Position numbers and translations under genes: made by a program. The notes under the pieces are model-generated. The model was not told the DNA's origin and did not search any database. It saw only the letters and a list, made by a program, of their open reading frames with translations. A stretch of 16,703 nt of DNA, taken from NCBI GenBank assembly GCA_946611445.1, contig CAMODP010000018.1, forward strand, positions 1 to 16,703, written 5' to 3'. The stretch comes from an uncultured Eubacterium sp. Lineage in GTDB: Bacteria; Bacillota; Clostridia; Lachnospirales; Lachnospiraceae. Positions 1 to 15,736 of the stretch are shown here, one piece after another; positions within the stretch are counted from its first letter, which is position 1; each line of letters starts with the position of its first letter.

Positions 1-63
1 TTCCGCATGGTTCTGAACAGTTACACATATTATAATAATGGAGAAGATGGTTCTGTGACGTAG
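1..63 (+). CDS. Possible 3' end of an upstream gene (partial)
   Basis: Frame 1 is open from the window edge to a TAG at 61-63, while the other two plus frames close within about 35 bases. The stop lies 11 bases before the next ATG and next to its ribosome binding site, as in an operon. Only 20 codons are visible and no family can be named. The stretch also holds a TATAAT at 31-36, so it could instead be a promoter region. A methyltransferase gene would be the expected neighbour of a corrinoid protein, but nothing visible shows one. Confidence 0.25.
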   Translation, partial: FRMVLNSYTYYNNGEDGSVT

Positions 64-74
64 AGGAGGAAAAA

Positions 75-716
75 ATGCTGGACACAGGAAAACTGGCAGA
101 GGCAATGGGTGATCTGGATGAGGATACCCTGGTGGAAATGCTGCATGCGGTCATACGTGAAGGCGGGGCAGAGGCACCGGCTGCCATGGAAGCGTGTCAG
201 AGAGGGATGGATAAGGTAGGTGCCCTCTTTGAGGAAGGTGAATACTTCGTCGGCGATCTGATCTACGCGGGTGAACTGATGACAGAAGCGGCAGATATTC
301 TGAAGGAAGCATTGATTGCGGATGCGGGAGACGGGAATACCAAAACGAAGATGATTTTATGCACCGTCAAGGACGATCTGCATGATATCGGGAAGAACAT
401 TGTCAAAGCAATGCTGGAAGCGGGCGGATTTGAGGTGATCGATCTCGGCATTGATGTGCCGGCAGAAAAAATCATTTCCACGGCAAGGGAGGAAAATATC
501 AAAATCGTGGCGCTGTCCGGCGTTCTGACTCTGGCTGTAGACTCCATGAAGAACACGGTCGACGCGATCAAAGCGGCCGGCATGGATGACGTAAAAGTCA
601 TTATCGGCGGAGCTCCCGTCAATGCGGATGTATGTGCCCACGTGGGAGCAGATGAGTGGGCTTACAGTCCGCAGAAGACGGTGCAGACCTGCAGGGCCTG
701 GGCAGCGGGCATGTAA
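75..716 (+). CDS. Corrinoid (B12-binding) protein of a methyltransferase system
   Basis: This is a cytoplasmic methyl carrier of the MttC/MtbC/MtmC type, 213 residues, the usual full length. An N-terminal helical cap domain (about 1-90) precedes a Rossmann-like cobalamin-binding domain (about 91-213). The hallmark DLHDIG lies at residues 101-106, with His103 expected as the lower axial ligand of cobalt. The LSGVLTL segment near 147 and the GGAPV loop near 178 are the other B12-contact motifs. In known systems a substrate-specific methyltransferase loads the methyl group from a methylamine, methanol or methoxy compound, and a second methyltransferase passes it to tetrahydrofolate or CoM. The start is supported by AGAGGAGG about 6 bases upstream. 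No methyltransferase or reductive activase gene is visible downstream, so the substrate cannot be told. Confidence 0.92.
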   Translation: MLDTGKLAEAMGDLDEDTLVEMLHAVIREGGAEAPAAMEACQRGMDKVGALFEEGEYFVGDLIYAGELMTEAADILKEALIADAGDGNTKTKMILCTVKDDLHDIGKNIVKAMLEAGGFEVIDLGIDVPAEKIISTAREENIKIVALSGVLTLAVDSMKNTVDAIKAAGMDDVKVIIGGAPVNADVCAHVGADEWAYSPQKTVQTCRAWAAGM

Positions 717-773
717 AGGAGATGTGACTGCGGGACAGACTTTCCGGTAAGAACCTTAAACTTGCCTGACAGC

Positions 774-782
774 TGCTATAAT
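774..782 (+). promoter_or_regulatory. Extended -10 promoter element
   Basis: TGC directly followed by TATAAT is a perfect extended -10 motif; no convincing -35 is seen. The expected transcription start near 789 lies downstream of the possible TTG start at 782, which argues for the ATG at 827 as the start of the next gene. Confidence 0.5.
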
Positions 783-826
783 TGAAATATACCGGATACA
801 GAGAAATCAGGAAGAATGGGTTAAAA

Positions 827-1312
827 ATGAGTGATGTAGAAAAATTTTTTTACAAGGGAGGCCTCAACTGCGCAGAATCCACATTAAGATGTCTGATTGA
901 AGACGGCGCGGTCGACATCCCTGAGGAAACAGTGCGTATGATGACCGGATTTGGCGGCGGTATGCAGAGAGGGGCTGTTTGTGGTGCCGTTGTCAGTGCA
1001 GTATGTGCTATCGGTTCCAAAACCGGGCGAATTTCACCGGAAGAATCCCGTACGCCATCTGCTGCAGCCGTGAGGGAATTTCTGACCCGCTTTGAAGGAG
1101 AGTTTGGAACTATTTACTGCAGAGACCTTCAGAGTACATACGTGAAAGAGCATGCACTGAAATCCAAAGGCATGTACAGAGCATGTACTGTGTTTGTTGA
1201 AAAGGCGATACAGATAACGGAAGATATACTGAGGCGGATGCCGAAAACGACTTTTTTGCCGAATATTTCCTTAATGAAACTGCGTGTGTTTTCTCTGTCC
1301 ACTGTAATATGA
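827..1312 (+). CDS. C_GCAxxG_C_C family protein (cysteine-motif protein of unknown role)
   Basis: The 161-residue protein matches the family's pattern of spaced cysteines and glycines. NCAES contains Cys15, GFGGGMQRGAVCGAV spans residues 41-55 with Cys52, and Cys98 (YCRDL) and Cys120 (ACTVFVEKA) follow. The family is common in anaerobes and is thought to bind metal or act in redox, but no reaction is established. The ATG at 827 was chosen over an in-frame TTG at 782 because the TTG lies inside the likely -10 element; AGGAAG sits upstream with rather long spacing. After about residue 140 the chain runs on for some 20 residues that do not look like the family, and this tail overlaps the convergent gene by 42 bases. 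A recent junction or frameshift near the 3' end is possible. Confidence 0.8.
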   Translation: MSDVEKFFYKGGLNCAESTLRCLIEDGAVDIPEETVRMMTGFGGGMQRGAVCGAVVSAVCAIGSKTGRISPEESRTPSAAAVREFLTRFEGEFGTIYCRDLQSTYVKEHALKSKGMYRACTVFVEKAIQITEDILRRMPKTTFLPNISLMKLRVFSLSTVI

Positions 1313-2032
1313 TTGCTGCATATCCCATTTTTCGGCCAGTTCAGCTATGGAATGGGCGTCAGTTCCGACCACGATATCTGTGGTATCGGGCACGAGATTC
1401 CAGAATTCCTCACGGTAATTGCGTTCTCGCTTCATGGACTCCAGATTTTTTTCAAGTTTCATACCCGCAGCATTTGCTGCATGAATAAGGAGACGGCTCA
1501 ATTCGGTCATGTCGTCCGTCCATTCTTTCCGCCTCTCAAAACACCGGTCCGGATGGGCGACTACATCAAACAAACCACTTTCAATCCCCTCAATCATTGC
1601 CTCCATACAGCCGATATGTTCCCGGTTATCCTTTTCTGATGGAGAAAGCTGGAAGCTGTATACTCCGGGACGTACCTCATACGTGTGCTGGCCGATCATC
1701 AAAAAATCCAACAGTGCATTTTCCCGCAGCTCTTCATAAAAACCGCGAAAGGACGGCAGATATTCTATTTCCAGTCCGACACGAACAGCAATGCTGTCGG
1801 CATACTTCTCTTTCAGTACGTGAATCGTATGCAGATATTCAGACAGCTGTTCGATTTTCATCCGGTATGCAATCGGATTGCCGGGAAAAGGAGAATGGTC
1901 GGAGAACAGAATGCCCGATGCGCCCAGTTCTATTGCCTTTTCTACGTAAGCTTCGTCAGAGACTTCCTCTGCGTGCCCGCAGCGATATGTATGCACATGA
2001 AACAATTCTGTTTTATCAATATACAGACGCAT
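1271..2032 (-). CDS. PHP-domain phosphatase, histidinol-phosphatase (HisJ/HisK) like
   Basis: The 253-residue protein has the PHP metal-site residues in order: His12 and His14 (FHVHTYRCGH), Asp45-His46 (FSDHS), Glu88 (GLEIEY), His116 (GQHTY), His160 (VAHPDR), and Asp225 with His227 (GTDAHS). HisJ-type enzymes remove phosphate from L-histidinol phosphate in histidine synthesis. Many PHP paralogues outside his operons act on other phosphoesters, and no his gene is seen here, so the substrate is uncertain. The start at 2032 follows a GGGGG run about 8 bases upstream; a longer reading from 2080 lacks a better site. The last 17 or so residues diverge from the usual closing helix and overlap the tail of the convergent gene, so the C-terminus may be altered. 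Confidence 0.82.
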   Translation of the reverse strand: MRLYIDKTELFHVHTYRCGHAEEVSDEAYVEKAIELGASGILFSDHSPFPGNPIAYRMKIEQLSEYLHTIHVLKEKYADSIAVRVGLEIEYLPSFRGFYEELRENALLDFLMIGQHTYEVRPGVYSFQLSPSEKDNREHIGCMEAMIEGIESGLFDVVAHPDRCFERRKEWTDDMTELSRLLIHAANAAGMKLEKNLESMKRERNYREEFWNLVPDTTDIVVGTDAHSIAELAEKWDMQQSYYSGQRKHTQFH

Positions 2033-2132
2033 ACTTACGCCCCCGAAAGATTTGTTCATAAGAAAAAATCCGCTGCACATTTCAGAATACTGAATCTTTT
2101 GACCGTAAACCCGGGAAATGGCCGGATTCTGT

Positions 2133-2162
2133 TTGAATTTGTTTCAATTCCTATGATACACT
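2133..2162 (+). promoter_or_regulatory. Weak promoter candidate with TTGAA/TTCAA inverted repeat
   Basis: TTGAAT (2133-2138), 18 bases, then TACACT (2157-2162) could be a sigma-A promoter for the permease-kinase gene. TTGAA and TTCAA (2133-2147) form a small inverted repeat over the -35, a possible regulator site. The match to consensus is modest and the region is divergent, so it may serve either direction. Confidence 0.25.
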
Positions 2163-2187
2163 ATTTTTAGCTGCTTGCATATCTGAA

Positions 2188-2211
2188 TGACATCGAAGCC
2201 GTCCCCTGTCA
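2188..2211 (+). repeat. Degenerate GACAGGGG-type palindrome, upstream copy
   Basis: TGACA (2188-2192) and TGTCA (2207-2211) flank a short core. The right-hand 15 bases, AGCCGTCCCCTGTCA (2197-2211), are identical to 5094-5108 in the terminator hairpin after the same gene. Compared with that copy, the left arm here has lost its GGGG and much of the loop. Confidence 0.6.
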
Positions 2212-2232
2212 CATCTTATGAGGTATGTTTTT

Positions 2233-5061
2233 ATGAAGCGACAACCGAAATCTGAAACCGTTTCCCCAAAACTGTTATGGAAGCCTTCTGTACTGGGTAT
2301 ATGGGGCCTCTCTTTCGGGTGCGTGATCGGCTGGGGCAGCATTGTCATGCCGGGGACGACCTTCCTCCCGGAAGCAGGCCCTCTGGGGAGTGTTGTCGGC
2401 CATCTGGCAGCGGCCGCGATGATTTTCGTGATCTGCGCGAACTATTCTATTCTGGCCCGTGCCTGCCCGGACAGTGCCGGCACATACGGATATATCAGGA
2501 AAATGCTCGGCCATGACTACGCATTCCTGTCTGCCTGGTCTCTTGTCATTTCCTACCTGATGCTGTTCTGGGCAAATTCTACCGCATTTATGCTGATCGG
2601 GCGGTATTTTCTGGGAGGCATCCTGCAGTGGGGAATGCATTACACGGTCGCCGGCTATGACGTGTATATGGGTGAAGTCATCGCGACGATTATCATTGAA
2701 GCGGTGTGCTGCCTCGTCCTCTGCCATACGAGAAGAGCAGTGTACACATTGCGGATCCTTCTGGCTGTCATTTTGTTTGCCGGTGTGGCGCTTCTGTTTG
2801 CCGGCGCGCTTCTTCGCGGCGAGATCAGCCTTCCGGAACCGTTCTTTGCAAAAGACGGGGCAAAGGGCCTGCAGATCCTCAGCATCACGATTCTTGCTCC
2901 CTGGCTGTATGTCGGCTTTGAAACGGTTTATCATGAGGCGGGTACGGAGCATTATCCGCTGAAGCGCACGATCTGGGGTACTTTTGCCTCGGTTGCCGCC
3001 GGCATGTTTGTCTATGCCGCCCTGTCAATGATTGCGGCATCCGGGATGCCGGAGGGCTGCGGCTCATGGAAAGAGTATATTGCGAATCTCGGACAGTACC
3101 ATGGGATGGACGGGATCCCCGTGCTTTTCAACATTCAGAGGATGTTCGGCGTGAAGGGAACGCTGCTTGCCGCGGTCACGGTCTTCTGTGCGCTCGCCAC
3201 CGGCGTGCTTGGCTTCCTGCAGTCAGCGGCGAACCTGGTTCAGACCATGGCGGAGGATCAGCTTCTGCCCGCTTACTATTCTGCAGCGCCGAACGGCATA
3301 CCGCGCCGGGCTGTCATCTCCATCCTTGTTCTTTCCCTGCCGATTCCTTTTCTCGGCCGTACCTCCATAGGCTGGCTGGTAGATGTATCTACACTGGCAG
3401 TGGCAATCGTGTATGCCCATGTTTCCATGAGCGCATGGAAGATCGCAAGACAGGAAAACCGCATCGGAGGCCGCATAACCGGACCGGCCGGCATCCTTCT
3501 CTCTGCGGGTGCGTTCGTCTTTCTGATCATTCCCAACATCTTTTCACAGAATGCGCTTACGGCGGAGACATATTTTATGCTGGCGCTGTGGAGCCTGACC
3601 GGCATTATTTACTACTGGATCATTTTCCGCAGGGACACACAGAACCGCTTCGGAAAGTCAACAGTCATGTGGATCATGATGCTGGCGCTTCTCTTCCTGT
3701 CGGTGATCCTGTGGATTTCCATGGATACGCAGAACCGTGTTGTCAGCCTGGGAAAAGAAGAGCTCTCCGCGTTGCTTACAAGGAACAGTATCATTGAGGT
3801 CGGGCTGATGGCTGTCATGATCCTTGTGATCTTCAGCCTCTTCTCCACAATGCTGCGGCGGGAGCACAAACTCGACAGGGAACGCATTCTGGCGGAGGAG
3901 GGCAACCGCGCAAAATCCGTCTTCCTGTTCAATATGTCACATGATATCCGGACACCGCTCAACGCCATAATCGGCTATACGGGTCTTGCCATGCGGGAGA
4001 AGGACACACCGCCCCTGATTGCGGACTATCTTACAAAAATTGCATCCTCCGGGCATCATCTTCTGTACCTGATCAACGATGTACTGGAGATGAGCCGGAT
4101 CGAAAGCGGCAAGATGGAGTTGGAGCCGCAGCCGACAGACCTGAGGAAGGTGCTTCAGGAGGCCGAGGATATCTTTGCGGCGCAGATGGAGGCAAAACGG
4201 CTGACATTTACTGTCGATGCATCACAGGTAACAGATACTACCGTCCTGTGCGATAAGAACCGGCTGCTCCGCGTCCTGCTGAATCTGCTGAGCAACGCGT
4301 GCAAATTTACGCCGGAGGGCGGAAGGGTAGACGTTACGCTCCGCCAGACCGATACTGTGAACGGACGGACCGGGACATATCAGCTGCTGGTAAAGGATAA
4401 CGGGATCGGGATGAGCCGGGAATTTGCGGAACGGGTGTTTGATGCGTTTGAGAGGGAGAGAACCTCTACCGTCAGCAATACCCAGGGTACCGGGCTCGGT
4501 ATGGCCATAACGAAGGGTATCATCGATCTGATGAGCGGAAGCATCCGGGTGAACACTGCGCCGGGAGCCGGCACGGAAGTGATCATTGATCTGCAGTTTG
4601 AGATTCTGGATACCGTACCTGATTATGGCAGTTCTGCCGAGGCGGCGAGCGCTGCCGGGGCAGCCGGTTTTGATTTCAGCAGAATCCATCTGCTGCTGGT
4701 GGAAGACAATGCGATCAACCGCGAGATTGCCGCCGCCATCCTCACGGAGACGGGGTTCACACTGGAAAGCGCCGTAAACGGGCGGGAAGCCGTAAACCTG
4801 ATCGCCGCTTCAGAGCCGGGCCATTTTGACCTGATTCTGATGGACGTACAGATGCCGGTCATGGACGGCTACGAGGCCACCAGGGCAATCCGTGCGCTGG
4901 AAAACCCGGCATTGGCAGACATCCCGATCGTGGCGATGACCGCCAACGCATTTGCCGAAGACAAAGAGGCGGCCAGAAATGCGGGGATGAACGGGCATAT
5001 CGCAAAACCGATCGACATCCCCAATATGATTGATACAATCATGGAAGTGCTTCACAGGTAA
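2233..5061 (+). CDS. APC-type amino-acid permease fused to hybrid histidine kinase (HisKA-HATPase-receiver)
   Basis: This is a 942-residue membrane protein. Residues about 10-465 form an APC-superfamily permease of about 12 helices, with the unwound TM1-like CVIGWGSIVMPG segment near 30-41. Two further helices (about 479-497 and 520-540) lead into a linker and the kinase. The H-box SHDIRTPLN has phosphoacceptor His570; the N-box is LLNLLSNACKFTPEGG; the G-boxes are DNGIGM and GTGLGM. A receiver follows, with acidic VEDN, phospho-Asp871 (LMDVQMPVMDGYEA) and Lys925 (AKPID). It probably senses a solute at, or by transport through, the permease and signals through a phosphorelay. No HPt or response regulator gene lies nearby. 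The start is 2233 because TGAGGT lies 8 bases upstream; an ATG at 2218 has no site. All catalytic residues are present, so it looks functional. Confidence 0.93.
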   Translation: MKRQPKSETVSPKLLWKPSVLGIWGLSFGCVIGWGSIVMPGTTFLPEAGPLGSVVGHLAAAAMIFVICANYSILARACPDSAGTYGYIRKMLGHDYAFLSAWSLVISYLMLFWANSTAFMLIGRYFLGGILQWGMHYTVAGYDVYMGEVIATIIIEAVCCLVLCHTRRAVYTLRILLAVILFAGVALLFAGALLRGEISLPEPFFAKDGAKGLQILSITILAPWLYVGFETVYHEAGTEHYPLKRTIWGTFASVAAGMFVYAALSMIAASGMPEGCGSWKEYIANLGQYHGMDGIPVLFNIQRMFGVKGTLLAAVTVFCALATGVLGFLQSAANLVQTMAEDQLLPAYYSAAPNGIPRRAVISILVLSLPIPFLGRTSIGWLVDVSTLAVAIVYAHVSMSAWKIARQENRIGGRITGPAGILLSAGAFVFLIIPNIFSQNALTAETYFMLALWSLTGIIYYWIIFRRDTQNRFGKSTVMWIMMLALLFLSVILWISMDTQNRVVSLGKEELSALLTRNSIIEVGLMAVMILVIFSLFSTMLRREHKLDRERILAEEGNRAKSVFLFNMSHDIRTPLNAIIGYTGLAMREKDTPPLIADYLTKIASSGHHLLYLINDVLEMSRIESGKMELEPQPTDLRKVLQEAEDIFAAQMEAKRLTFTVDASQVTDTTVLCDKNRLLRVLLNLLSNACKFTPEGGRVDVTLRQTDTVNGRTGTYQLLVKDNGIGMSREFAERVFDAFERERTSTVSNTQGTGLGMAITKGIIDLMSGSIRVNTAPGAGTEVIIDLQFEILDTVPDYGSSAEAASAAGAAGFDFSRIHLLLVEDNAINREIAAAILTETGFTLESAVNGREAVNLIAASEPGHFDLILMDVQMPVMDGYEATRAIRALENPALADIPIVAMTANAFAEDKEAARNAGMNGHIAKPIDIPNMIDTIMEVLHR

Positions 5062-5073
5062 GGCGGGAAAAAG

Positions 5074-5115
5074 TGACAGGGGTCGTGGCAGGGAGCCGTC
5101 CCCTGTCATTTTTTT
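5074..5115 (+). terminator. Intrinsic terminator built on a GACAGGGG-type palindrome
   Basis: TGACAGGGG (5074-5082) pairs perfectly with CCCCTGTCA (5100-5108), followed by seven Ts (5109-5115). It lies 12 bases after the permease-kinase stop codon. Its right half is the same 15-base sequence found just before that gene at 2197-2211. Confidence 0.85.
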
Positions 5116-5116
5116 A

Positions 5117-5145
5117 TTGACTTTCTCCCTGAAAGGCAATATACT
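5117..5145 (+). promoter_or_regulatory. Sigma-A promoter of the ABC transporter genes
   Basis: TTGACT (5117-5122), 17 bases, then TATACT (5140-5145): near-consensus -35 and -10 at ideal spacing, beginning right after the T-run of the preceding terminator. The expected start of transcription is about 5152. Confidence 0.75.
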
Positions 5146-5154
5146 TAACGGCGA

Positions 5155-5168
5155 TTAGATATATCTAA
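5155..5168. promoter_or_regulatory. Palindromic operator candidate
   Basis: TTAGATATATCTAA is a perfect 14-base palindrome placed just downstream of the predicted transcription start. That position is typical of a repressor site that blocks RNA polymerase. The sequence type suits a PadR-, GntR- or TetR-like dimer, but no regulator gene is present in the window. Confidence 0.55.
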
Positions 5169-5206
5169 GTCATGTTAAACTATTCATGCCATAGAGGAGA
5201 TTGTAT

Positions 5207-5908
5207 ATGCATATTGTCGAGATGAGAGATGTATCCAGGGTTTACCGGAATGGCGAACATGAGCAGCGGGCGCTGGACCATGTGAACCTGACATTTGAGG
5301 AAGGACAGTTTATCGTTGTGCTGGGGCAGAGCGGAGCCGGCAAAAGTACGCTGCTGAATCTTCTGGGAGGGCTGGATGCGCCGACCGAAGGGACGATTAT
5401 TGTTGGGGGAAAGGATATTTCCGCCCTGTCAGATAACGAAATGGCAGATTACCGGGCAGCTGCCGTGGGATTTGTGTTTCAGAGCTACAATCTGATTCCT
5501 ACACTTACGGTTATCGAGAATGTGGCGCTTGTCAAGGAGATCGCACCGCACCCTCTGAGCAGTCATGACATGCTGAAGGCGGTGGGCCTTTCGGACCACA
5601 TACATCAGTTTCCTTCTGAACTTTCAGGCGGCGAACAGCAGAGGGTGTCCATCGCCAGAGCGCTTGCCAAGAATCCGCAGATTCTTCTCTGTGATGAACC
5701 GACGGGAGCCCTGGACTCAGAAACCGGCGTCATGGTGCTGAAGCTTCTGCTGTCGATGTGCAGAGAGATGAATAAAACGATCGTGATTGTGACGCACAAT
5801 CAGAACATAGCAGGAATTGCGGATGTTGTTGTGCGTGTGAGAAACGGGAAAATACAGAGCTGTGAGGTGCAGGAGCATCCGCTTTCTGTGGAGGAGGTGG
5901 ACTGGTAA
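5207..5908 (+). CDS. ABC transporter ATP-binding protein (LolD/MacB type)
   Basis: The 233-residue nucleotide-binding subunit has all motifs: Walker [10 protein letters not shown] (40-48), Q-loop Gln92 (FVFQSYN), signature LSGGEQQR (139-146), Walker B ILLCDEP with Asp163-Glu164, D-loop GALD and H-loop His197. Its closest relatives by motif are the ATPases that pair with FtsX-fold permeases and work as mechanotransmitters for lipoproteins, peptides or antibiotics rather than as classic importers. The ATG at 5207 was chosen because GAGGAGA lies about 7 bases upstream; a TTG at 5201 overlaps that site. The stop codon overlaps the next gene's start (TAATG), so the two are translationally coupled and form a two-gene transporter. 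Expression is probably controlled by the palindrome in the leader. Confidence 0.92.
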
Positions 5909-8205
5909 TGCTTCGAAAGAAGAGGCTGCGGACCTTCGGGAAATACAAGGCACAGTTTTTGTCGATGATTATCATGGTTGCGCTTGGCATCGGCGTTTTT
6001 CTGGGCTTTAACATGGAGTGGTACAGTCTGGAACGCAACACGGCAGAGATATATGAGGCTACAGGCTTTGCCGACTTCCGGATTTTTTCTGAGAAGGGAT
6101 TTTCCGAGGAGGATCTCGATGCAGTTCTGGCAATGGAGGGAGTCGAGGATGCCACACGGTACCTCTCAGTCAATGCGTCGGTAAAGGATGACACTGACAT
6201 TGTAGCGGTGACCGTATCAGAGAACATGAATGTTTCAGGTATCCTGCTGACGGCCGGAGAACCATATGACGCCGACAGCACTGACGGAATCTGGCTGTCG
6301 GATTCCTATGCTGAGAGCAATGGGATTTCCACAGGTGATTCGCTGGAGCTGAGCTATAAAGGCATAGATATCAGGGGAACGGTCAGAGGACTGGTCAAAT
6401 CAGGGGAGTATCTGATCTGCCTGCCGGACGAGACGCAGCTGATGCCGGACTACAGCAGTTACGGCTATGCCTACATTTCACCGGCTATGCTCGAGAACAG
6501 TATCCCGGCCCTGTATCGCAGATTCATCGGGGACTCCATGTATTATCAGATTAACGTCAAATCTCCGGCGGAGAAGGCGGATTTCGTAAAGGCGGCGGAT
6601 GAGGCGCTGGGGCGTACCTGCCTGGTTCTGTCTAAAGATGAGACGATTTCCTGGGCAGAGGCACAGGGAGAGGTGGAGGAAGGGAAGACCATGGGCTCCA
6701 TTCTGCCTGTCCTGTTTCTTGCAATTGCCATTCTGACAATGGTGACGACCATGCACCGGATCACAGCCAGCGAGAAGACCCAGATCGGCACGCTCAAGGC
6801 GCTGGGCTTCCGAAACCGGCAGATCCTGCGCCATTACACCGGTTACGCCCTGTCGGTCGGCATTGCCGGCAGCGTCCTGGGCATCGGCATCGGGTACTGG
6901 CTCGCGTGGTTCATTATGAATCCGGGCGGCGCGATGGCCACGTATATTGACATGCCCTCGTGGAAGCTCTATGTTCCGGGATTTTGCTGGATTGTTCTGA
7001 TTCTGATCAACCTTTTCCTGACGCTGATCGGCTATCTGTCTGTCCGGAAAATGCTGGAGGGTACGGCGGCTGACGCACTCCGCCCGTACACGCCGAAGAA
7101 GATCCGTCACCTGGCTGTAGAGGAAACAAAAGCGTTTAAGTCTCTGGGATTCGGCACAAAATGGAATCTGCGGGACGGCCTGCGGCATAAGTCGCGGTCC
7201 TTCATGACGCTTTTCGGCATTATCGGCTGCATGGTGCTGCTGGTCGGGGGCATGGGCATGATGGACACCATGAATGCCTTTATCGATACCTTTTACGATG
7301 AGGCCATCCACTACGATAAACGCGTCAACCTGGACGCGGAAACCGTTACCAATGAAAAAGCGCAGGAGCTGGCTGAGAAGCTGCAGGCAGACTGGTGCGC
7401 CCAGAGCAGCGTGCAGATCGGCGACAAGGGTTATAATCTGGAGATCTATTCCGTTACCCATGACAAGGTACGTTTTCCGGGGCAGGACATGAAAATGGTC
7501 ACGCTGCATGACGGGGGAGCGTATATCTGTTCCCGCATAGCCAGAGAATATGCCTTGGCGGCCGGAGACAGTGTGACGTTCACCCCCTATGACAGCGATG
7601 AAACATACACTGTGCCGGTAGCGGGGGTCCTGCTTTCCATGAGCGAAGGCATCGTCATGACTGCGCAATGCGCGGAGAATGCCGGCATCAGCTATACAAT
7701 CAACACGCTGTATACAGACGAGCCGGAGATTCCGGAAGATCCCGTGATCCTCAATACACAGAGCAAAAAGGCGATCATGGACTCCTTTGATACCTTCATG
7801 GATCTGATGAATACCATGATTGTCCTGCTGGTGGCGGCTGCGGTGATTCTGGGAACGGTTGTGCTCTACAACCTCGGAGTAATGAGCTATACCGAGCGAT
7901 ACCGGGAGCTGGCGACGCTGAAGGTGGTCGGTTTTAAAGACCGCAAAATAGCCGGCCTGCTCATCGGACAGAACCTGTGGCTGACGATTGCGGGAATACT
8001 GATCGGTCTCCCGGCGGGCGTGGCAGTCTTGCAGTACCTGATCACGGCGCTGGCATCTGAATATGAGCTGAAGATGGTCCTGGGACTGCCCACCTACCTG
8101 GTATCTGTCGCACTCACCTTTTTCGTTTCCCTGATCGTCGGGCTCGTACTGGCAAGAAAAAACAGACATATCGATATGGTTGCGGCACTGAAGACGGCGG
8201 AATAA
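5908..8205 (+). CDS. ABC transporter permease with two FtsX domains
   Basis: This 765-residue membrane protein is the partner of the ATPase just upstream, whose stop overlaps its ATG. It shows an internal duplication typical of fused FtsX/MacB permeases. TM1 is about 17-35, then an extracellular domain of about 220 residues, then three helices (about 263-283, 311-336, 357-378). The second half repeats this: TM5 432-452, an extracellular domain to about 630, then 632-655, 683-710 and 729-750. The coupling segments TLKALGF (near 295) and TLKVVGF (near 670) mark the two FtsX units. It is not the ten-helix BceB layout, so bacitracin-type resistance is not implied. Likely roles are lipoprotein or peptide extrusion or envelope signalling; the substrate is unknown. 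Confidence 0.9.
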   Translation: MLRKKRLRTFGKYKAQFLSMIIMVALGIGVFLGFNMEWYSLERNTAEIYEATGFADFRIFSEKGFSEEDLDAVLAMEGVEDATRYLSVNASVKDDTDIVAVTVSENMNVSGILLTAGEPYDADSTDGIWLSDSYAESNGISTGDSLELSYKGIDIRGTVRGLVKSGEYLICLPDETQLMPDYSSYGYAYISPAMLENSIPALYRRFIGDSMYYQINVKSPAEKADFVKAADEALGRTCLVLSKDETISWAEAQGEVEEGKTMGSILPVLFLAIAILTMVTTMHRITASEKTQIGTLKALGFRNRQILRHYTGYALSVGIAGSVLGIGIGYWLAWFIMNPGGAMATYIDMPSWKLYVPGFCWIVLILINLFLTLIGYLSVRKMLEGTAADALRPYTPKKIRHLAVEETKAFKSLGFGTKWNLRDGLRHKSRSFMTLFGIIGCMVLLVGGMGMMDTMNAFIDTFYDEAIHYDKRVNLDAETVTNEKAQELAEKLQADWCAQSSVQIGDKGYNLEIYSVTHDKVRFPGQDMKMVTLHDGGAYICSRIAREYALAAGDSVTFTPYDSDETYTVPVAGVLLSMSEGIVMTAQCAENAGISYTINTLYTDEPEIPEDPVILNTQSKKAIMDSFDTFMDLMNTMIVLLVAAAVILGTVVLYNLGVMSYTERYRELATLKVVGFKDRKIAGLLIGQNLWLTIAGILIGLPAGVAVLQYLITALASEYELKMVLGLPTYLVSVALTFFVSLIVGLVLARKNRHIDMVAALKTAE

Positions 8206-8284
8206 GGGGAGAGAACATGACAGATCTGTGACAATTCACATGTTACAATATGCGCAAAAAAGAAAGGCCGAGGAGGATACTGTC

Positions 8285-8476
8285 ATGACAAGATTTGTGC
8301 TTAGAAGTCTTTTGTATATTGTGCTGATGAATACCTTCATGTTTATTTTATGCGTTATTTTTGATACTGATTTTGATCCGACCCTGATCTCAGGTGTGGT
8401 CGTCCCAGTTGCTTGCGCGCAGGCCAGTTTATGGGCAGAGGGAAAGAGGAGAGCAAAAAGGAACGGCTCTCATTGA
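8285..8476 (+). CDS. Small two-helix membrane protein, unknown function
   Basis: This is a 63-residue protein with AGGAGG 8 bases before the ATG. Residues about 7-25 and 32-49 are hydrophobic, with an acidic loop (DTDFDP) between them and a basic tail (GKRRAKRNGSH), as expected for a hairpin membrane protein with its ends in the cytoplasm. It follows the ABC permease by 79 bases. It could be an accessory subunit, but this is only suggested by position. No family was recognised. A longer reading from a GTG at 8228 has no ribosome binding site. Confidence 0.6.
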   Translation: MTRFVLRSLLYIVLMNTFMFILCVIFDTDFDPTLISGVVVPVACAQASLWAEGKRRAKRNGSH

Positions 8477-8523
8477 CGCATCTTTCTTTCATTCCATCAT
8501 GCTTGCCGGGGCCGAAAGCCAAT

Positions 8524-8549
8524 GAGTCAGGGGACGTTTCTCCTGACTC
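8524..8549 (+). repeat. REP-like imperfect palindrome (GAGTCAG family), copy at the RAYT 3' end
   Basis: GAGTCAGG (8524-8531) pairs with CCTGACTC (8542-8549) around a loop containing GACGTTTCT. Copies with the same arms and nearly the same loop occur at 11922-11948 and, inverted, at 15509-15535. It overlaps the last codon of the transposase remnant, which is where REPs sit next to RAYT genes in other bacteria. Confidence 0.75.
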
Positions 8550-8991
8550 ACTTTGCCCGCTGAATGATATTTCTGTTTATTCCTGTAATGCGTTCCAGCT
8601 GTCTGACAGTCAGGCCGCATTTCTTAAGGCGGATCAGGATCTCTTTTCTGGCGGCAGGTGCCATTTCCTGAATAAGTGCAGGAGATGTCAGCCCGGTTTC
8701 TGAGAAGATATTTGTAATGCTGCACTGTCAGTTATCAATTTTCTTCTGCTTTCTATTTCAGGTTCGTACACCTCTGTTTCAGCATCATCTCTGTTCTCAT
8801 TGATATACATATACAGCTGGTCTTTATCGCCAATGATCGCATAGGCCTGTGTAATATCAGTTACCCCGTCCGTCATGCCGGTCAGATAGCTGGATGCACT
8901 GCTCCATCGATATTTGTCCCATCTGCAGATGCCTGCCGCCTCCGGATTGCGAAGAATATAACGAAGTACAGTCAGGAACCCGCCCTGACTC
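8548..8991 (-). pseudogene. REP-associated tyrosine transposase (RAYT, IS200-like), truncated and frameshifted
   Basis: Only the C-terminal half of a RAYT is left. On the minus strand, from about 8978, FLTVLRYILRNPEAAGIC, then KYRWSSASSYLTG and TDITQAYAIIGDKDQLYMYI, are hallmark segments of the family. This reading stops at 8688. The family's closing helix-turn-helix continues in another frame from about 8730 to a TGA at 8548-8550: RKEILIRLKKCGLTVRQLER followed by ITGINRNIIQRAK. One small indel near 8705-8735 explains the break. The N-terminal Y1/HUH domain, with its His-x-His and catalytic Tyr, is missing; the homology ends at a REP-like palindrome (8970-8991). The gene cannot encode an active enzyme. 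An ATG at 9011 opens the remaining frame, but the codons before 8978 are not RAYT-like. Confidence 0.85.
8970..8991 (-). repeat. REP-like palindrome at the broken 5' edge of the RAYT remnant
   Basis: On the minus strand this reads GAGTCAGGGCGGGTTCCTGA followed by CT. It has the same arms as the other GAGTCAG elements with a shortened loop. Together with 8524-8549 it places inverted copies on the two sides of the remnant. Confidence 0.55.
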
Positions 8992-8998
8992 CTCGTAA

Positions 8999-9027
8999 TT
9001 GCGGGAAACATCTGTTAGTATTATAAT
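8999..9027 (+). promoter_or_regulatory. Probable promoter of the flavodoxin gene
   Basis: TTGCGG (8999-9004), 17 bases, then a perfect TATAAT (9022-9027). The -35 is weak but the spacing is ideal. It lies just outside the transposase remnant and reads toward the flavodoxin gene at 9088. Confidence 0.5.
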
Positions 9028-9087
9028 CAAAAACTAGCCGGGAACGGTTTCCAATGAGAAGTCAGGAGAGCAAGAGGAGGAACAAAT

Positions 9088-9498
9088 ATGAAAATTGCTG
9101 TCAGATATTATACGAAGACCGGAAATACAAAAAGACTGGCTGAGGCGATCGGAAAAGCTGTCGGCGCAGAAGCGCTTCCGATCAGTTCACCCATAACCGA
9201 ACCGGTGGACATCCTTTTCCTGGGTAATTCCTATTACGCCTTCAGTATTGATCCGGAGGTCAGATCTTTCGTCAGGGGACTGGACAGGAATCTGGTGGGT
9301 AAGATCGTCAATTTCGGTTCCGCCGCCATGTTGAATTCTACGTACAAAAAGGTAAAGGCAGAGGCGGATAAAGCGGGTATTCCCATGGATGAGAGGGAGT
9401 TTCACTGCAAAGGAGAGTTCAAAGGCATCCATAAGGGAAAACCGGATGAATCCGATATGAGGGCTGCCGCAGAGTTTGCCAGAAAAATCATAGGGTGA
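9088..9498 (+). CDS. Small flavodoxin-like protein
   Basis: The 136-residue protein begins with the flavodoxin beta-strand and FMN phosphate loop, YTKTGNTKRLAEAI (residues 8-21). The strands DILFLGNSYY and KIVNFGSAA follow, as expected for the flavin-binding fold. Flavodoxins carry single electrons on FMN between reductases and acceptors in the cytoplasm. This one is short and may be a flavodoxin-domain protein rather than a classic ferredoxin substitute. AGAGGAGG lies 7 bases before the start. Its own promoter is likely at 8999-9027. The amylase gene follows after 83 bases on the same strand with a hairpin between them; no functional link is obvious. Confidence 0.82.
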   Translation: MKIAVRYYTKTGNTKRLAEAIGKAVGAEALPISSPITEPVDILFLGNSYYAFSIDPEVRSFVRGLDRNLVGKIVNFGSAAMLNSTYKKVKAEADKAGIPMDEREFHCKGEFKGIHKGKPDESDMRAAAEFARKIIG

Positions 9499-9538
9499 GT
9501 ATCCGGCGTTTCTGACGAGTAAATCATGAAAAAAGGAT

Positions 9539-9565
9539 GAGCAGCGGGGTCTGTCCCCGCTGCTC
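9539..9565 (+). promoter_or_regulatory. Strong hairpin abutting the amylase ribosome binding site
   Basis: GAGCAGCGGGG (9539-9549) pairs perfectly over 11 bases with CCCCGCTGCTC (9555-9565) around a TCTGT loop. The next bases, CGGAGG (9566-9571), are the amylase ribosome binding site. There is no T-run, so it is not a standard terminator. It may tune translation initiation, protect the 5' end of a processed mRNA, or partly end flavodoxin transcripts. Confidence 0.6.
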
Positions 9566-9581
9566 CGGAGGATACAATACG

Positions 9582-11216
9582 ATGGCATGGTATGACGACG
9601 CGGTTTTTTATCATATTTATCCGCTTGGCGCGGCAGGAGCGCCGAAGACAAATGATTACGGGGAGCCGGTGCACAGGCTGAATTCGCTGATTCCCTGGAT
9701 CGGTCACCTGAAGAGGATGCATTTTACAGCGCTGTATATAGGACCGCTGTTTGAATCGGTGGGGCACGGGTATGAGACGACAGACTACAAAAAACTTGAC
9801 ACCAGGCTGGGAACCAATGATGACTTGAGGGCTTTTGTAAAGTCCTGTCATGAGAACGGTATCCGGGTGATTTTTGACGGTGTGTTTAATCATACGGGAC
9901 GTGATTTTTTTGCCTTTAAGGATCTGCGGGAAAACAGGGAAAACTCGCCTTACAGGGACTGGTACTGTAATGTAAATTTCCAGGGGAATAATGAATATAA
10001 CGACGGCTTTTCCTACGATAACTGGGGAGGATATAATCTGCTGGCCAAGCTGAATCAGCGCAATCCGGCCGTCAGAGACTATATTTGTGATGTGATCCGT
10101 TTCTGGGCGCGGGAGTTTGATGTTGACGGGATCCGGCTGGATGCCGCCGACGTGCTGGATTTTGATTTCATGAGGGCGCTGCGCCGCACGGCGGAGGAAG
10201 TGAAGCCTGACTTCTGGCTCATGGGCGAGGTGATTCACGGCGACTATTCCAGATGGGCCAATGACAGTACCCTGCACAGTGTCACGAACTATTCGCTGCA
10301 CAAGGCTCTGTACAGCGGGCACAATGATCACAATTATTTTGAAATCGCCCACACCGTAAAGCGGAACAATGATATGGTGCCTGCAAATATCAGGCTGTAC
10401 AATTTCGTGGATAATCACGATGTAGAGCGGATCATCACAAAGCTGTGGAACAAGAAGCATTATTTTCCCGTTCATGTCCTCCTGTATACACTGCCGGGAA
10501 TCCCCTCTGTATATTACGGCAGTGAATTCGGGATCGAGGGGAAGAAGGAAAGATTTTCGGATGATTCTCTGCGGCCGCATATCGATATCAGCAACTACGC
10601 AGATGCCCTGACGGAGAATCCGTACACCGCATTTGTGGCGGAGCTGGGCAGGATCCGCGGCAGTTTTCCGGACCTTGCGCGGGGAGACTATCGCGAGATG
10701 TACCTGACCACTGAACAGTTTGCGTTCGCCAGAGGCGATATGATCATTGCCGTCAATAATGCGGACCATGCCGCGAATGTACGCGTGGCCGCACCGCATG
10801 CACGGTATACCGGCCTTCTGCAGGGAACCCGAGCCGACACGCGGGACGGGTGGATGGATATTTTGCTGGAGCCCTGCAGCGGAGAGATCTTTGCGCCCGG
10901 AGATGCGGCTGTGGAATCCGGAGACACCTCTGCTGTGCCGGCAGTATTTTCCATGCCGGCAGAGAATCTGCAAGAAGCGGAGTACATTGAAAAGAATCCG
11001 GATAGCGCGGACAGTCACAATGCCCGGCAGGCAGAGCAGGAACAGGTGACAATTCCTGAAGGCGTGCCGTACCGGGAGATGACCGTCCCGCAGCTGCAGC
11101 AGGTGATACTTGAAAAAATGGCGAAAAACGGGCCTGTGACAGAACGGATGCGAAGAGATGTCGAGGATAATATCTGGCAGGATTCCCTGGTGAAGTGGGC
11201 GGAGAGCTTCCGGTAG
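9582..11216 (+). CDS. GH13 alpha-amylase-family glycoside hydrolase, cytoplasmic
   Basis: The 544-residue enzyme has no signal peptide and should act inside the cell on maltodextrins or similar alpha-glucans. The four GH13 regions are present: DGVFNH (99-104), GIRLDAAD with nucleophile Asp187, MGEV with acid/base Glu216, and FVDNHD with transition-state Asp280. The barrel is followed by a beta domain (about 370-435). A tail of roughly 100 residues follows: an acidic, Ala/Ser-rich linker, then a charged helical end (YREMTVPQLQQVILEKMAKN and on) that is not part of the GH13 core. The start at 9582 has GGAGG 10 bases upstream; an in-frame ATG at 9537 would add 15 residues encoded by the hairpin and has no good site. 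Whether it is an alpha-glucosidase, neopullulanase-like or amylase cannot be told. Confidence 0.9.
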   Translation: MAWYDDAVFYHIYPLGAAGAPKTNDYGEPVHRLNSLIPWIGHLKRMHFTALYIGPLFESVGHGYETTDYKKLDTRLGTNDDLRAFVKSCHENGIRVIFDGVFNHTGRDFFAFKDLRENRENSPYRDWYCNVNFQGNNEYNDGFSYDNWGGYNLLAKLNQRNPAVRDYICDVIRFWAREFDVDGIRLDAADVLDFDFMRALRRTAEEVKPDFWLMGEVIHGDYSRWANDSTLHSVTNYSLHKALYSGHNDHNYFEIAHTVKRNNDMVPANIRLYNFVDNHDVERIITKLWNKKHYFPVHVLLYTLPGIPSVYYGSEFGIEGKKERFSDDSLRPHIDISNYADALTENPYTAFVAELGRIRGSFPDLARGDYREMYLTTEQFAFARGDMIIAVNNADHAANVRVAAPHARYTGLLQGTRADTRDGWMDILLEPCSGEIFAPGDAAVESGDTSAVPAVFSMPAENLQEAEYIEKNPDSADSHNARQAEQEQVTIPEGVPYREMTVPQLQQVILEKMAKNGPVTERMRRDVEDNIWQDSLVKWAESFR

Positions 11217-11221
11217 AATCG

Positions 11222-11261
11222 GCAGACAGGGGGACGACGAAAAAACCGTCCCCCTGTCTGC
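11222..11261. terminator. Long perfect hairpin between convergent genes (GACAGGGG type)
   Basis: GCAGACAGGGGGACG (11222-11236) pairs perfectly over 15 bases with CGTCCCCCTGTCTGC (11247-11261); the loop ACGAAAAAAC holds an A-run. It fills the 47-base gap between two convergent stop codons and may end transcripts from both sides, although neither side has a good T-run. It shares the core of the repeats at 2188-2211 and 5074-5108. Confidence 0.65.
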
Positions 11262-11263
11262 TG

Positions 11264-11869
11264 CTATTTCTGGAGTGCACGGATCACCTCCGCCATTTTT
11301 TCTGCATACCGCCGGTGCCCGCTCTCTGAAAAGTGCACCAGATCACCGGACAGGCTGATATCCCATTTTCCTGCATCGGCAAAGTGAGCGCCGGCCTGCG
11401 CGGCAAGCCCGCGGAACCCGTCATTCATTTTGATGCATTCCAGGCGGTATTTTCTGTATAACGGATCTGTGATGCCTTCCCTGCCGACATACGGCGGAGC
11501 AGTCACGAGAATATTGACATTGCCCGCACAGTCTGTCAGGAACTGCAGGAAGGTCCGCATCCGCCCGATGGCTTCCTCCGCATGCGGGTACGGGGTCAGC
11601 AGAAGATCGTTCGTGCCCAGCATGACTGCGAAAATATCTCCCTCTCCCAGCCGGCCCAGCAAAGGCAGGAGCCATCTGCCGTCACCGGGCAGCTCCGGGA
11701 GTCGCCGCCCGTTCATTCCTTCGGGTATTATCTGCCATTCCGCGCCAAGCAGACCGGCCAGAATCGTCGTCCACCGCTGCTCATACGGGTACCGGAGCGT
11801 CTGCCAGTTTGCGGGATCATAGCCGTATGTGTTGGAGTCACCATAAAAGAGGATTTTTCCTGACTTCAT
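11264..11869 (-). CDS. SGNH/GDSL-family hydrolase (esterase-like)
   Basis: The 201-residue protein carries the SGNH blocks: block I FYGDSNTYG with nucleophile Ser12, block II EGMNGR with Gly51 and Asn53, block III GTND with Asn87, and block V DLVHFSESGH with Asp176 and His179 completing the triad. The family removes acyl or acetyl groups from lipids, sugars or polysaccharides. The closeness of block II to NEGLNGR-type arylesterases suggests a small-ester or acetyl-ester hydrolase. There is no signal peptide, so it should be cytoplasmic. AAGGAGA lies about 7 bases before this ATG; the longer frame back to 12085 is a shadow of the MATE gene. It follows the MATE gene by 77 bases and is probably co-transcribed with it. 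Confidence 0.87.
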   Translation of the reverse strand: MKSGKILFYGDSNTYGYDPANWQTLRYPYEQRWTTILAGLLGAEWQIIPEGMNGRRLPELPGDGRWLLPLLGRLGEGDIFAVMLGTNDLLLTPYPHAEEAIGRMRTFLQFLTDCAGNVNILVTAPPYVGREGITDPLYRKYRLECIKMNDGFRGLAAQAGAHFADAGKWDISLSGDLVHFSESGHRRYAEKMAEVIRALQK

Positions 11870-11921
11870 TTCCAGATCTCCTTCTGCTGAAAACAGCCTA
11901 TTTCCATTATTCACGATGCAG

Positions 11922-11948
11922 GAGTCAGAAGGGACCTTTCTCTGACTC
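11922..11948 (+). repeat. REP-like imperfect palindrome (GAGTCAG family), copy at the MATE 3' end
   Basis: GAGTCAG (11922-11928) and CTGACTC (11942-11948) enclose a loop with GGGACCTTTCT, aligning with the copy at 8524-8549. It lies between the MATE stop and the hydrolase start, and its outer bases form part of the MATE stop codon. Confidence 0.75.
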
Positions 11949-13278
11949 ATTTTTCTCTGTGGAAGGCGGTGAGGTAGACGATGACCCGGAAGATCCAGTC
12001 TACGAACATGGCATACCAGACACCCAGAACATTCATATGCAGCACGCGTACATAGACATGCGCCAGGCCGATCCGGAAGGTCCACATCGCAAAAATGGCG
12101 ACGACCATGGTAAAGGCCGGGCGCCCGGATGCGCGGAAGTAATAGGGCAGAAGAAAGGCCAGGGGCCAGATGATCATAGCAACACAGTGAATGAAGATCA
12201 GGCCTTCTGCCAGCATGGCTGATTCACCGGTCAGGTGATAGCAGGAGACCCAGAAGGATCTGCCCGCCGCAATGACCAGGCAGATAAAGAACAGAATGAT
12301 GTAGTTCAGGCAAAGCAGGCGGCGGACATAATACCGGGCCTGCTCCTTTTTTCCTGCTCCGCAGCACTGAGCGGTAATGGTGATCATGGCGGCTCCCAAT
12401 GCGTTTCCCGGCAGATACAGCCAGGTCGCCAGATTACAGGCAACTGCAAAGGCGGCGATAGACGCTGTTCCCAATGTGGAAACCAGACTCTGGATCATCA
12501 GCTTGCCCAGCTGGAAAAAGCAGCTTTCGGTTCCATTGGGAAGACCGATGGAGAGAATAGACTTTATGACCGCCATACTGGGACGGAATGCGGACAGACC
12601 GGGAATGCGCAGGGCATGATCCCGGCGCTGGAGAGGTATAAGAATGCAGAGTGCGGCGATAATACGGGAGATGAGCGTCGGAATTGCCACACCTGCCACG
12701 CCCATATGCAGTACCAGGATGCAGAGTGCGTTCCCGGCAACATTGATCAGATTCATATACAGGGATACTCTGACGGCGATTTTTGTATTGCCGGCCGCCC
12801 GGAAAACTGCCGCACCGGAATTGTACAAAGCCAGGAAAGGAAAAGACAGGCAGGTGATCAGCAGATACAGGGCTGCATTGTCCAGGACAGCAGCCTCAAC
12901 CCGCCCGAACAGGAGCGTCAGCAGGCTGCGGTTTCCGAAAAGAAAGCCTGCAGTGACGCAAACAGCGCCTGCCAGTGTCAGACCCATGAGCTGCGCGCCG
13001 GCCTGGGCGGCTTTTGCGGTCTTTCTCTCGCCGATACTGCGCGCGCAGACTACGGTCCCGCCTGCCGAAACGGCATACAGAACCTGAATGACGAGATAAT
13101 TCATGGAATCCACCAGAGAGACGCCGGAAATGGCTTCTTTGCCGGCGAAGGAGATCATAAGGACATCCGCCATGCCCACCAGTACCGTCAGAAGCTGCTC
13201 CAGAAGCAGCGGCCAGATCATAGACCGCAGCTGACGGCGAGAGAACATGGGATCAGAAGGAAACGAGAATGACAGCAT
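11947..13278 (-). CDS. MATE-family multidrug/cation exporter
   Basis: The 443-residue integral membrane protein has the two-lobe MatE layout of about 12 helices. It opens with the amphipathic RRQLRSMIWPLLLEQLLTVL and the TM1 segment GMADVLMISFAGKEAISGVSLVDS that typify the family. The second lobe starts near IKSILSIGLPNGTESCFFQL. Members export organic cations, drugs or metabolites in exchange for Na+ or H+; the substrate is not predictable. The ATG at 13278 was chosen because AAAGGG lies 9 bases upstream; an in-frame GTG at 13323 is possible but has no clear site. The coding sequence ends in the palindrome at 11922-11948, which supplies its TGA. A good promoter with an inverted repeat lies at 13375-13404. 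Confidence 0.92.
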   Translation of the reverse strand: MLSFSFPSDPMFSRRQLRSMIWPLLLEQLLTVLVGMADVLMISFAGKEAISGVSLVDSMNYLVIQVLYAVSAGGTVVCARSIGERKTAKAAQAGAQLMGLTLAGAVCVTAGFLFGNRSLLTLLFGRVEAAVLDNAALYLLITCLSFPFLALYNSGAAVFRAAGNTKIAVRVSLYMNLINVAGNALCILVLHMGVAGVAIPTLISRIIAALCILIPLQRRDHALRIPGLSAFRPSMAVIKSILSIGLPNGTESCFFQLGKLMIQSLVSTLGTASIAAFAVACNLATWLYLPGNALGAAMITITAQCCGAGKKEQARYYVRRLLCLNYIILFFICLVIAAGRSFWVSCYHLTGESAMLAEGLIFIHCVAMIIWPLAFLLPYYFRASGRPAFTMVVAIFAMWTFRIGLAHVYVRVLHMNVLGVWYAMFVDWIFRVIVYLTAFHREK

Positions 13279-13374
13279 CTTCTGCGGCCCTTTCACAGTT
13301 ATTGATATTACTTCCGGTGTCACAAAAGTCCGAAACTACTTTTGCCAGAAGACAGATGCAATACAACCCGGATA

Positions 13375-13404
13375 AGTATAAGTTGCGACAAGGCGCAAAG
13401 TCAA
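13375..13404 (-). promoter_or_regulatory. Sigma-A promoter of the MATE-hydrolase unit
   Basis: On the minus strand TTGACT (13404-13399), 18 bases, then TATACT (13380-13375). A second TTGACT lies 11 bases further upstream. Transcription should begin near 13368, leaving an untranslated leader of about 90 bases before the ATG at 13278. Confidence 0.7.
13383..13398. promoter_or_regulatory. Operator candidate inside the MATE promoter
   Basis: TTGCG (13383-13387) and CGCAA (13394-13398) form an inverted repeat with a 6-base spacer. It lies entirely between the -35 and -10, where a bound dimer would block RNA polymerase. A MarR-, TetR- or MerR-type drug-sensing regulator would fit, but none is encoded nearby. 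Confidence 0.5.
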
Positions 13405-13746
13405 TAGCAGTCAATCAGAACCGCCCGTTTGATTAATATATTGACAGCCGCCCCTCTTGCAAGGGACGGCTGTCATTGCTTTCCGGTGCTGTCCTTTTGA
13501 GACAGTCCGGAGTATGAGCAAGGCTGGACACACATATTCTGGGCGGATCGGATGACGAGTATCCGGATATCGACAACGCAGCCTGCCCGGTCACAGGGAC
13601 GGCGGCCGATCTGATGAGCGCGGAAACAAACCTTCGGCAGACTCTGCCGAGGAGACCGCAATCCGGAGTGATCCCGATCATAAAGGCCTCAGCAGTACCG
13701 GCGAAGGCAAGGCACGAAAATGGATGGCGTCATAGAAGCCGGCCAG
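13405..13746. other. Gene-free stretch
   Basis: About 340 bases between the MATE promoter and the end of the radical SAM gene. Open frames exist on both strands (for example minus 13433-13681), but none has a ribosome binding site or a recognisable protein sequence. Besides the hairpin at 13442-13475 nothing is seen; it may be a decayed gene. Confidence 0.5.
13442..13475. repeat. Imperfect palindrome, GACAG/CTGTC type
   Basis: TGACAGCCG (13442-13450) pairs with CGGCTGTCA (13467-13475); the inner CCCT and AGGG also pair across one mismatch. Read on the minus strand it contains AGCCGTCCC, shared with the repeats at 2197 and 5094, so it may be a distant member of that set. Confidence 0.5.
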
Positions 13747-15474: not shown

Positions 15475-15508
15475 GAATCGGACACCTCGGGTTTGTGACT
15501 GGACGGAT

Positions 15509-15535
15509 GAGTCAGACAGAAACGTCTCCTGACTC
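15509..15535 (-). repeat. REP-like imperfect palindrome (GAGTCAG family), upstream of the radical SAM gene
   Basis: GAGTCAG and CTGACTC arms (15509-15515, 15529-15535) enclose a loop that, on the minus strand, reads GAGACGTTTCTGT. This aligns with the copy at 8524-8549 with about two changes. It is in the opposite orientation and lies in the 5' leader of the radical SAM gene. Confidence 0.75.
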
Positions 15536-15567
15536 ACCTGAAGGATACACGATCTATGTGAAGACGT

Positions 15568-15650
15568 GATTGCAATCCGATTAGAATATTTTTAATTCTT
15601 TTGCCCGCAGGAGAAAACATCTGGAACTATGGTGCAGTGAGCGCTATACT
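15568..15650 (+). promoter_or_regulatory. Divergent regulatory region before the GH2 gene
   Basis: GATTGCAATC (15568-15577) is a perfect 10-base palindrome. AGAAT and ATTCT (15583-15599) form another dyad, and TATACT at 15645-15650 is a possible -10 for the GH2 gene with only a poor -35. These suit a sugar-responsive regulator, but the assignment is weak. Confidence 0.3.
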
Positions 15651-15736
15651 CAGAAGGAGTCCGGCCTTCTTCTGCGTATGTCTCCGGCGGGTACCGGGAC
15701 TGCGCAGGGGATTATTATGAATCAAAAGGGATGGCT

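Follow-up and report, generated by a model that had tools for sequence, protein, structure and literature searches.

What does a transporter-like membrane domain do when it is built into a histidine kinase? The question is raised by one gene in a stretch of 16,703 nucleotides from an uncultured Eubacterium sp. of the Lachnospiraceae (assembly GCA_946611445.1, contig CAMODP010000018.1, positions 1 to 16,703; hereafter the window), which encodes an APC-type permease, a kinase and a receiver as a single chain. An initial annotation, made from the sequence alone, had proposed a transceptor in which transport or binding of an amino acid or amine sets kinase activity, and had considered fusions of this kind far less familiar than those of CbrA-like proteins, in which a sodium/solute symporter is joined to a kinase. 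Our analysis points to a transporter shape reused as a sensor part, probably feeding the cyclic di-GMP (c-di-GMP) second-messenger pathway; the fuller reading, of an APC transporter turned receptor that feeds a phosphorelay to c-di-GMP, we consider an even call.

The order of parts given by the initial annotation, all in one open frame, was borne out by Pfam and AlphaFold2 (TM, transmembrane helix; HK, histidine kinase):

2233..5061 (+), whole gene, a single open frame: APC permease, two-helix linker, HisKA, HATPase and receiver
2218 (+), possible alternative in-frame start ATG upstream
2287..3627 (+), APC permease module, residues 24-470, 12 TM helices, LeuT-type fold
2329..2337 (+), TM1 break G38-W39-G40; G, W and G in 81/81 alignment rows labelled HK or GGDEF
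2569..2577 (+), TM3 W118-A119-N120; W118 and A119 mark the fused clade described below, N120 is common with permease-only relatives
2896..2949 (+), TM6 break (P228, W229, G233, E235) and cytoplasmic half TM6b (residues 237-244)
3661..3741 (+), extra helix TM13, residues 482-508 (AlphaFold2)
3754..3993 (+), TM14, one unbroken helix (residues 513-592) running into DHp helix 1 (AlphaFold2, DSSP)
3913..4110 (+), HisKA (Pfam); phospho-acceptor H575 at 3940-3942
4252..4599 (+), HATPase_c with N, G1 and G2 boxes (Pfam and alignment)
4693..5040 (+), receiver (Pfam); phospho-acceptor D876 at 4843-4845, and K930
5074..5115 (+), terminator-like hairpin (TGACAGGGG ... CCCCTGTCA, followed by a T run), from sequence reading with no terminator scan

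The AA_permease_2 (PF13520) match scores 76.7 bits against a curated cut-off of 27, and the module has the LeuT-type fold with broken TM1 and TM6 that characterizes the APC superfamily; in TM6, P228, W229 and G233 are present in 81/81 HK and GGDEF rows. Six sites counted over the phospho-His, the N and G boxes and the receiver Asp and Lys are identical in all rows of a 96-row alignment (96/96, including H575, D876 and K930), so that the kinase boxes and receiver are as intact as had been claimed, and the permease sites are conserved there like the kinase boxes; judged by its residues, the protein is a hybrid histidine kinase. Between permease and kinase the AlphaFold2 model has just two helices, and the predicted local distance difference test score (pLDDT) is about 70-89 along the TM14-DHp helix. 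Residues 442-565 have no Pfam match (whether Pfam includes a STAC model was not checked), and no SSF match (PF00474, SLC5) was found on the protein, though SSF is in the Pfam library scanned. GAGG precedes the start at 2233 on reading the sequence. Both gene flanks carry an identical 13-mer, CCGTCCCCTGTCA (window positions 2199-2211 and 5096-5108), with no match in 200 shuffles.

The same fusion is found in many relatives. Of 7996 candidates scored against the whole protein, at least 690 reached E <= 1e-3, not all of them necessarily fused; in the best 120, which are those listed, HisKA, HATPase and Response_reg match in 120/120 and the permease in 119/120, and the one without a permease label (P0029) still aligns over 96%. 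Relative P0002 is 75% identical to the window protein. The initial annotation had asked whether homologues normally keep permease and kinase as separate genes: the relatives, at 119 of the 120 listed, are fused too. Butyrivibrio sp. MB2005 (L007), whose record is not titled a metagenome-assembled genome, has permease and kinase in one chain as well; in a partial census by six short patterns, matches spanning most of the window protein came from records of Butyrivibrio, Selenomonadaceae, Erysipelotrichaceae, Quinella and Ruminococcus, among others. The suggested family survey, in which all places except that in G109 were read, gave a permease match at E <= 1e-30 in 52/299 sampled genomes and the fused sensor in 21/299, own genome included (local profiles and tree). 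The permease segment of L132, a locus from this family, is identical to the one in a protein named Lachnospiraceae, which supports that family indirectly. Across the phylum sample, 19/398 genomes match at 1e-60, with 28 places; the loci read leave aside eight weaker ones, with E values of 2.7e-61 to 3.8e-73 and frames 463-519 aa long. Two genomes outside the family (G327 and G656) carry sensors in tandem pairs. Tandem permease-kinase genes in two genomes of another family have a CheB-methylesterase gene before them on the same strand (L174:393-5382 (-) and L175:7504-12406 (-)).

Nor is the permease confined to kinases. With the permease piece as the only query, 60 proteins were listed; kinase fusions and proteins with nothing but a permease are among them, as are 19 permease-GGDEF chains 692-750 aa long. 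The loci read contain 38 sensor genes: 27 permease-HK-REC, four permease-HK, two permease-HK-REC-REC and five with GGDEF, among which Pfam finds GGDEF-REC-GGDEF-EAL in L135 and PAS_4-GGDEF in L145. The frame of L124 enters a masked stretch; this locus is included as permease-HK-REC and its permease retained in the tree, with tail and neighbours unused. A linker profile matches 34/38 of these genes, including 5/5 GGDEF forms, and is without match on L009, L127, L137 and L142. One other copy was found in the window's own genome, on contig C22: permease, linker and GGDEF with its motif intact. With the permease of this copy as query, at least 1944 proteins, again not necessarily all fused, were found at E <= 1e-3 among 7998 candidates, and the best 120 divide into 117 with GGDEF, one kinase fusion and two with neither. 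The permease with a similar two-helix linker is thus a swappable input module for kinase, GGDEF and GGDEF-EAL outputs. No publication describing an APC-kinase or APC-GGDEF family was found in the open-licence literature (none in the available part of PMC1183210); the architecture is no oddity, given its many relatives and the reuse of the permease on GGDEF outputs.

To what extent has the fused permease changed? In a tree built from 149 permease segments (IQ-TREE in quick mode, SH-aLRT without bootstrap, two long branches flagged), a branch with SH-aLRT 100 separates 92 rows from the remainder. This fused clade holds 58/58 kinase-fused and 23/23 GGDEF-fused permeases, three with a linker or tail, and eight short context-free metagenome proteins, at least two of which (P0122 and P0124) end in apparent frame slips; none of the permease-only genes read in genomes falls inside it, and the GGDEF label requires at least two changes, on the starred branches. 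P0175, in which REC-GGDEF-EAL runs into the permease, was excluded as a likely chimera. Compared with the 29 nearest permease-only rows, E235 replaces Asp in 97% of the 92 fused-clade rows (0/29 outside) and W118 replaces Pro in 93% (0/29), with D100, A119 and T392 also setting the clade apart; N120, G380, R381, W386 and the TM1 and TM6 breaks are common to both groups. The most distinct loss is in TM6b, where a Pro-Gln pair found in 57/57 rows outside the clade is reduced to 0% Pro and 10% Gln within it. Conservation was compared by equal-sized resampling over 440 same-length alignment stretches against the 29 permease-only rows, the 57 rows outside the clade or the 15 nearest: TM6b lost most, ranking lowest of 440 against 29 and against 57 rows and 18th lowest against 15. 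At the TM1 and TM6 breaks the shift was slight (-0.003 and 0.000, with the 29 rows as reference), and conservation rose in TM12 and the TM7-8 loop. These ranks are descriptive, since the regions were chosen after the pattern had been seen. By eye, with a slip of one position possible, W39 corresponds to T43 of GkApcT, W229 to F231, E235 to D237 and L186 to K191; we take the equivalents of these residues in APC transporters to serve in substrate contact, gate and proton coupling. The Lys presumably used in ApcT-type proton coupling thus aligns with L186, and its lack does not discriminate, because the permease-only relatives also have no Lys there. With the breaks kept and the Pro-Gln pair lost, the sequence change favours binding over transport, and the fused permease may have ceased transport and turned receptor; the transceptor idea of the initial annotation holds.

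From the observed architecture and catalytic residues, the modular reuse with GGDEF and the partner genes beside some relatives we infer the following scheme, every functional step of which, from ligand binding and the direction of its effect to the loss of transport, is put conditionally. A small extracellular ligand would bind where TM1 and TM6 are broken, and the movement that would open the inner gate of a transporter would instead be relayed via TM12-TM13 to TM14, and this long helix, continuous with the kinase dimerisation helix, would set autokinase activity at H575. The phosphoryl group would then pass from H575 to the protein's own receiver at D876, to a separate HPt, and on to a REC-GGDEF-EAL regulator, the c-di-GMP level changing at the end of the phosphorelay.

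The initial annotation expected the output to come from elsewhere, and no HPt or response-regulator partner for the gene lies within the window; HPt and REC-GGDEF-EAL candidates adjoin some relatives and are unlinked in the own genome. A separate HPt and/or GGDEF-EAL gene is found at 8/36 sensor loci and 0/42 other-permease loci (Fisher p 0.0013, related loci not being independent). In L138, L141 and L143 the sensor is followed by a REC-GGDEF-EAL gene and then an HPt of 112-119 aa (the L138 regulator by local profile and reading); the same pair is divergent in L140, and the regulator lies upstream of the sensor in L139. In L129 an HPt gene lies immediately upstream and a GGDEF-EAL frame further away; L007 has an HPt, with a REC-GGDEF gene just upstream, and L145 an SBP-GGDEF-EAL gene near the sensor. 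The five adjacent REC-GGDEF-EAL proteins look like phosphodiesterases, as the EAL motifs looked for are kept and GG[DE][DE]F is absent. Among 118 neighbour proteins (two genes each way of 37/38 sensor genes, 100-1300 aa, sensor loci alone), Pfam finds Response_reg in 16, GGDEF in 12, HisKA in eight, EAL in six and Hpt in six. The proposed search of the own genome found HPts on contigs C117 (110 aa) and C172 (113 aa; the stop inside the match is the frame's own end), both with H-A-L-K-G, and on C5 a 1078-aa REC-GGDEF-EAL-GGDEF protein with the EAL motifs and the C-terminal GGDEF motif intact; matches to the neighbour-type profiles have E values of 7.8e-36, 4.9e-41 and 1.4e-229, respectively. 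One of these HPts together with the C5 regulator would be the candidate partners of the window protein.

Several points weigh against a receptor feeding c-di-GMP. The window gene has no partner beside it, and 28/36 sensor loci lack an HPt or separate GGDEF-EAL gene, some of them on short contigs; the own genome is 67% complete. HPt is present in 23/23 sensor genomes, which was considered as proof of partnership, but this is weakened by a control: 43/60 sampled family genomes, or 39/56 after removing four on the sensor list, also have it, so that presence alone proves little. The TM6b, TM12 and TM7-8 regions were singled out post hoc, and a clade may acquire residues of its own while still transporting. 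CbrA, the nearest analogue, transports, and in the part of PMC7096432 available no CbrA activity is significantly affected by histidine.

The last point leads to a true transceptor like CbrA, in which the permease would still be a working transporter and the kinase would respond to its transport cycle or bound state. The complete 12-helix APC fold fits this, as do the breaks, N120, G380, R381 and W386 held in common with permease-only relatives, and CbrA itself transports L-histidine while its SLC5 domain appears to modulate the autokinase (PMC7096432, in part); set against the lost TM6b Pro-Gln (57/57 outside the clade) and the relaxation strongest in TM6b, we regard it as somewhat unlikely. 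The question of output is separate. The C172 HPt adjoins a Trans_reg_C/BTAD regulator that matches GGDEF weakly (L189:1918-4195 (-)) and whose receiver may be missing because the contig ends near its start, and transcriptional output is for this reason possible; that an HPt and a winged-helix regulator take the phosphorelay to transcription instead of c-di-GMP is nevertheless unlikely, given that the adjacent partners in five relatives are REC-GGDEF-EAL proteins (L138 by local profile and reading) and that the same kind of sensor is fused directly to GGDEF and EAL in other genomes.

If the permease were a mere membrane anchor, the kinase would answer to another input, an interior signal for example. 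In favour, the first 25 families of sensor neighbours include no recurrent gene linked to a ligand; against this, few parts of the module are as conserved as the ligand-site breaks, and we find this explanation quite improbable. That an error of assembly or sequencing had fused two separate genes might come to mind for a draft genome of 265 contigs; such an artefact is refuted for practical purposes by the 119/120 listed relatives, from several sources, with permease and kinase matches in one chain, and by the same fusion in Butyrivibrio sp. MB2005. Returning to the receptor reading, its broadest form falls a little short of even in our estimation: a previously undescribed bacterial module in which an APC transporter would once have become a dedicated receptor, its ligand site kept and its inner gate diverged, and would then have been joined through a conserved two-helix linker to alternative outputs in Bacillota, some of which come from rumen and gut samples: hybrid kinase, diguanylate cyclase and GGDEF-EAL, with c-di-GMP as the main point of convergence.

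As for the ligand, signalling genes lead among the sensor neighbours, which give no substrate clue in those 25 families. The neighbours of permease-only sisters hint weakly at small amines, too thinly for us to commit: L128 adjoins an HTH-nucleotidyltransferase and L119 a glycyl-radical activase and an iron-containing alcohol dehydrogenase, while a neighbour of L144 matches RsmH and one of L131 has no Pfam match. Another permease-only sister (L115:9503-12019 (+)) lies beside choline/ethanolamine-kinase-type and nucleotidyltransferase genes and is a possible APC-type choline permease; a further neighbour is an SSF symporter. Near the contig edge, the window holds a corrinoid protein gene (75-716), closest to the MtbC and MtgC families though below cut-offs, for which methylamine or betaine demethylation is possible; it was not used as an operon mate, an opposite-strand PHP gene lying between. 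Other fusions were also seen: more distant APC permeases are joined to iron-containing alcohol dehydrogenase in L152:6331-8976 (-) and L162:3724-6612 (-), one of them in the window's genus, and an APC permease is followed by TrkA_C domains in L172:5300-7381 (+). These three were confirmed by Pfam; the corresponding tree labels, given to eight rows with an alcohol-dehydrogenase-like tail and to L173, which resembles L172, rest on tail length.

Among known systems, the published work being cited here from the parts available, CbrA has been termed a transceptor, a rare protein of transporter and histidine kinase (PMC13022988), and it is the nearest characterised bacterial case; the comparison with it in the initial annotation holds. 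Like the window protein, CbrA and other SLC5/STAC kinases (CrbS, RpuS) combine a LeuT-fold transporter and a histidine kinase in one chain (PMC13022988, PMC9100948, PMC5715377). The window transporter is, however, APC (PF13520) and not SLC5, its passage from permease to kinase has no Pfam match and a continuous TM14-DHp helix (AlphaFold2), and GGDEF versions of the sensor exist; since the transporter is not SLC5, the protein is not a CbrA-type member, though it would be CbrA-like in its working. The 5TMR sensor kinases also use a transporter-like membrane fold as kinase input (PMC11109136), but theirs is an ECF S-component and not APC. Identity to the APC structures AdiC and GkApcT is 12-17%, and the window permease differs from them in its G-W-G at TM1 and in having no Lys at the GkApcT K191 position in the by-eye alignment.

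A different parallel is offered by Ssy1, the yeast SPS amino acid receptor, whose gating and signalling parts, according to a 2025 paper, include TM6b, a TM7-8 loop plug, a TM12 hinge, TM1a, TM1b, TM6a and a C-terminal latch (PMC12958826). TM6b, the TM7-8 loop and TM12 are regions of conservation shift here, whereas no such shift is shown for TM1a, TM1b, TM6a or the latch, and Ssy1 signals through the separate Ptr3 and Ssy5 without a fused kinase; the parallel, drawn post hoc, would be convergent at best. Because the large family has kinase and cyclase versions as well as unfused sisters, the passage from transporter to receptor can be tested on close relatives. If the receptor reading is true, c-di-GMP signalling would have a nutrient or amine input so far unrecognised, and the module would be a bacterial counterpart of yeast Ssy1.
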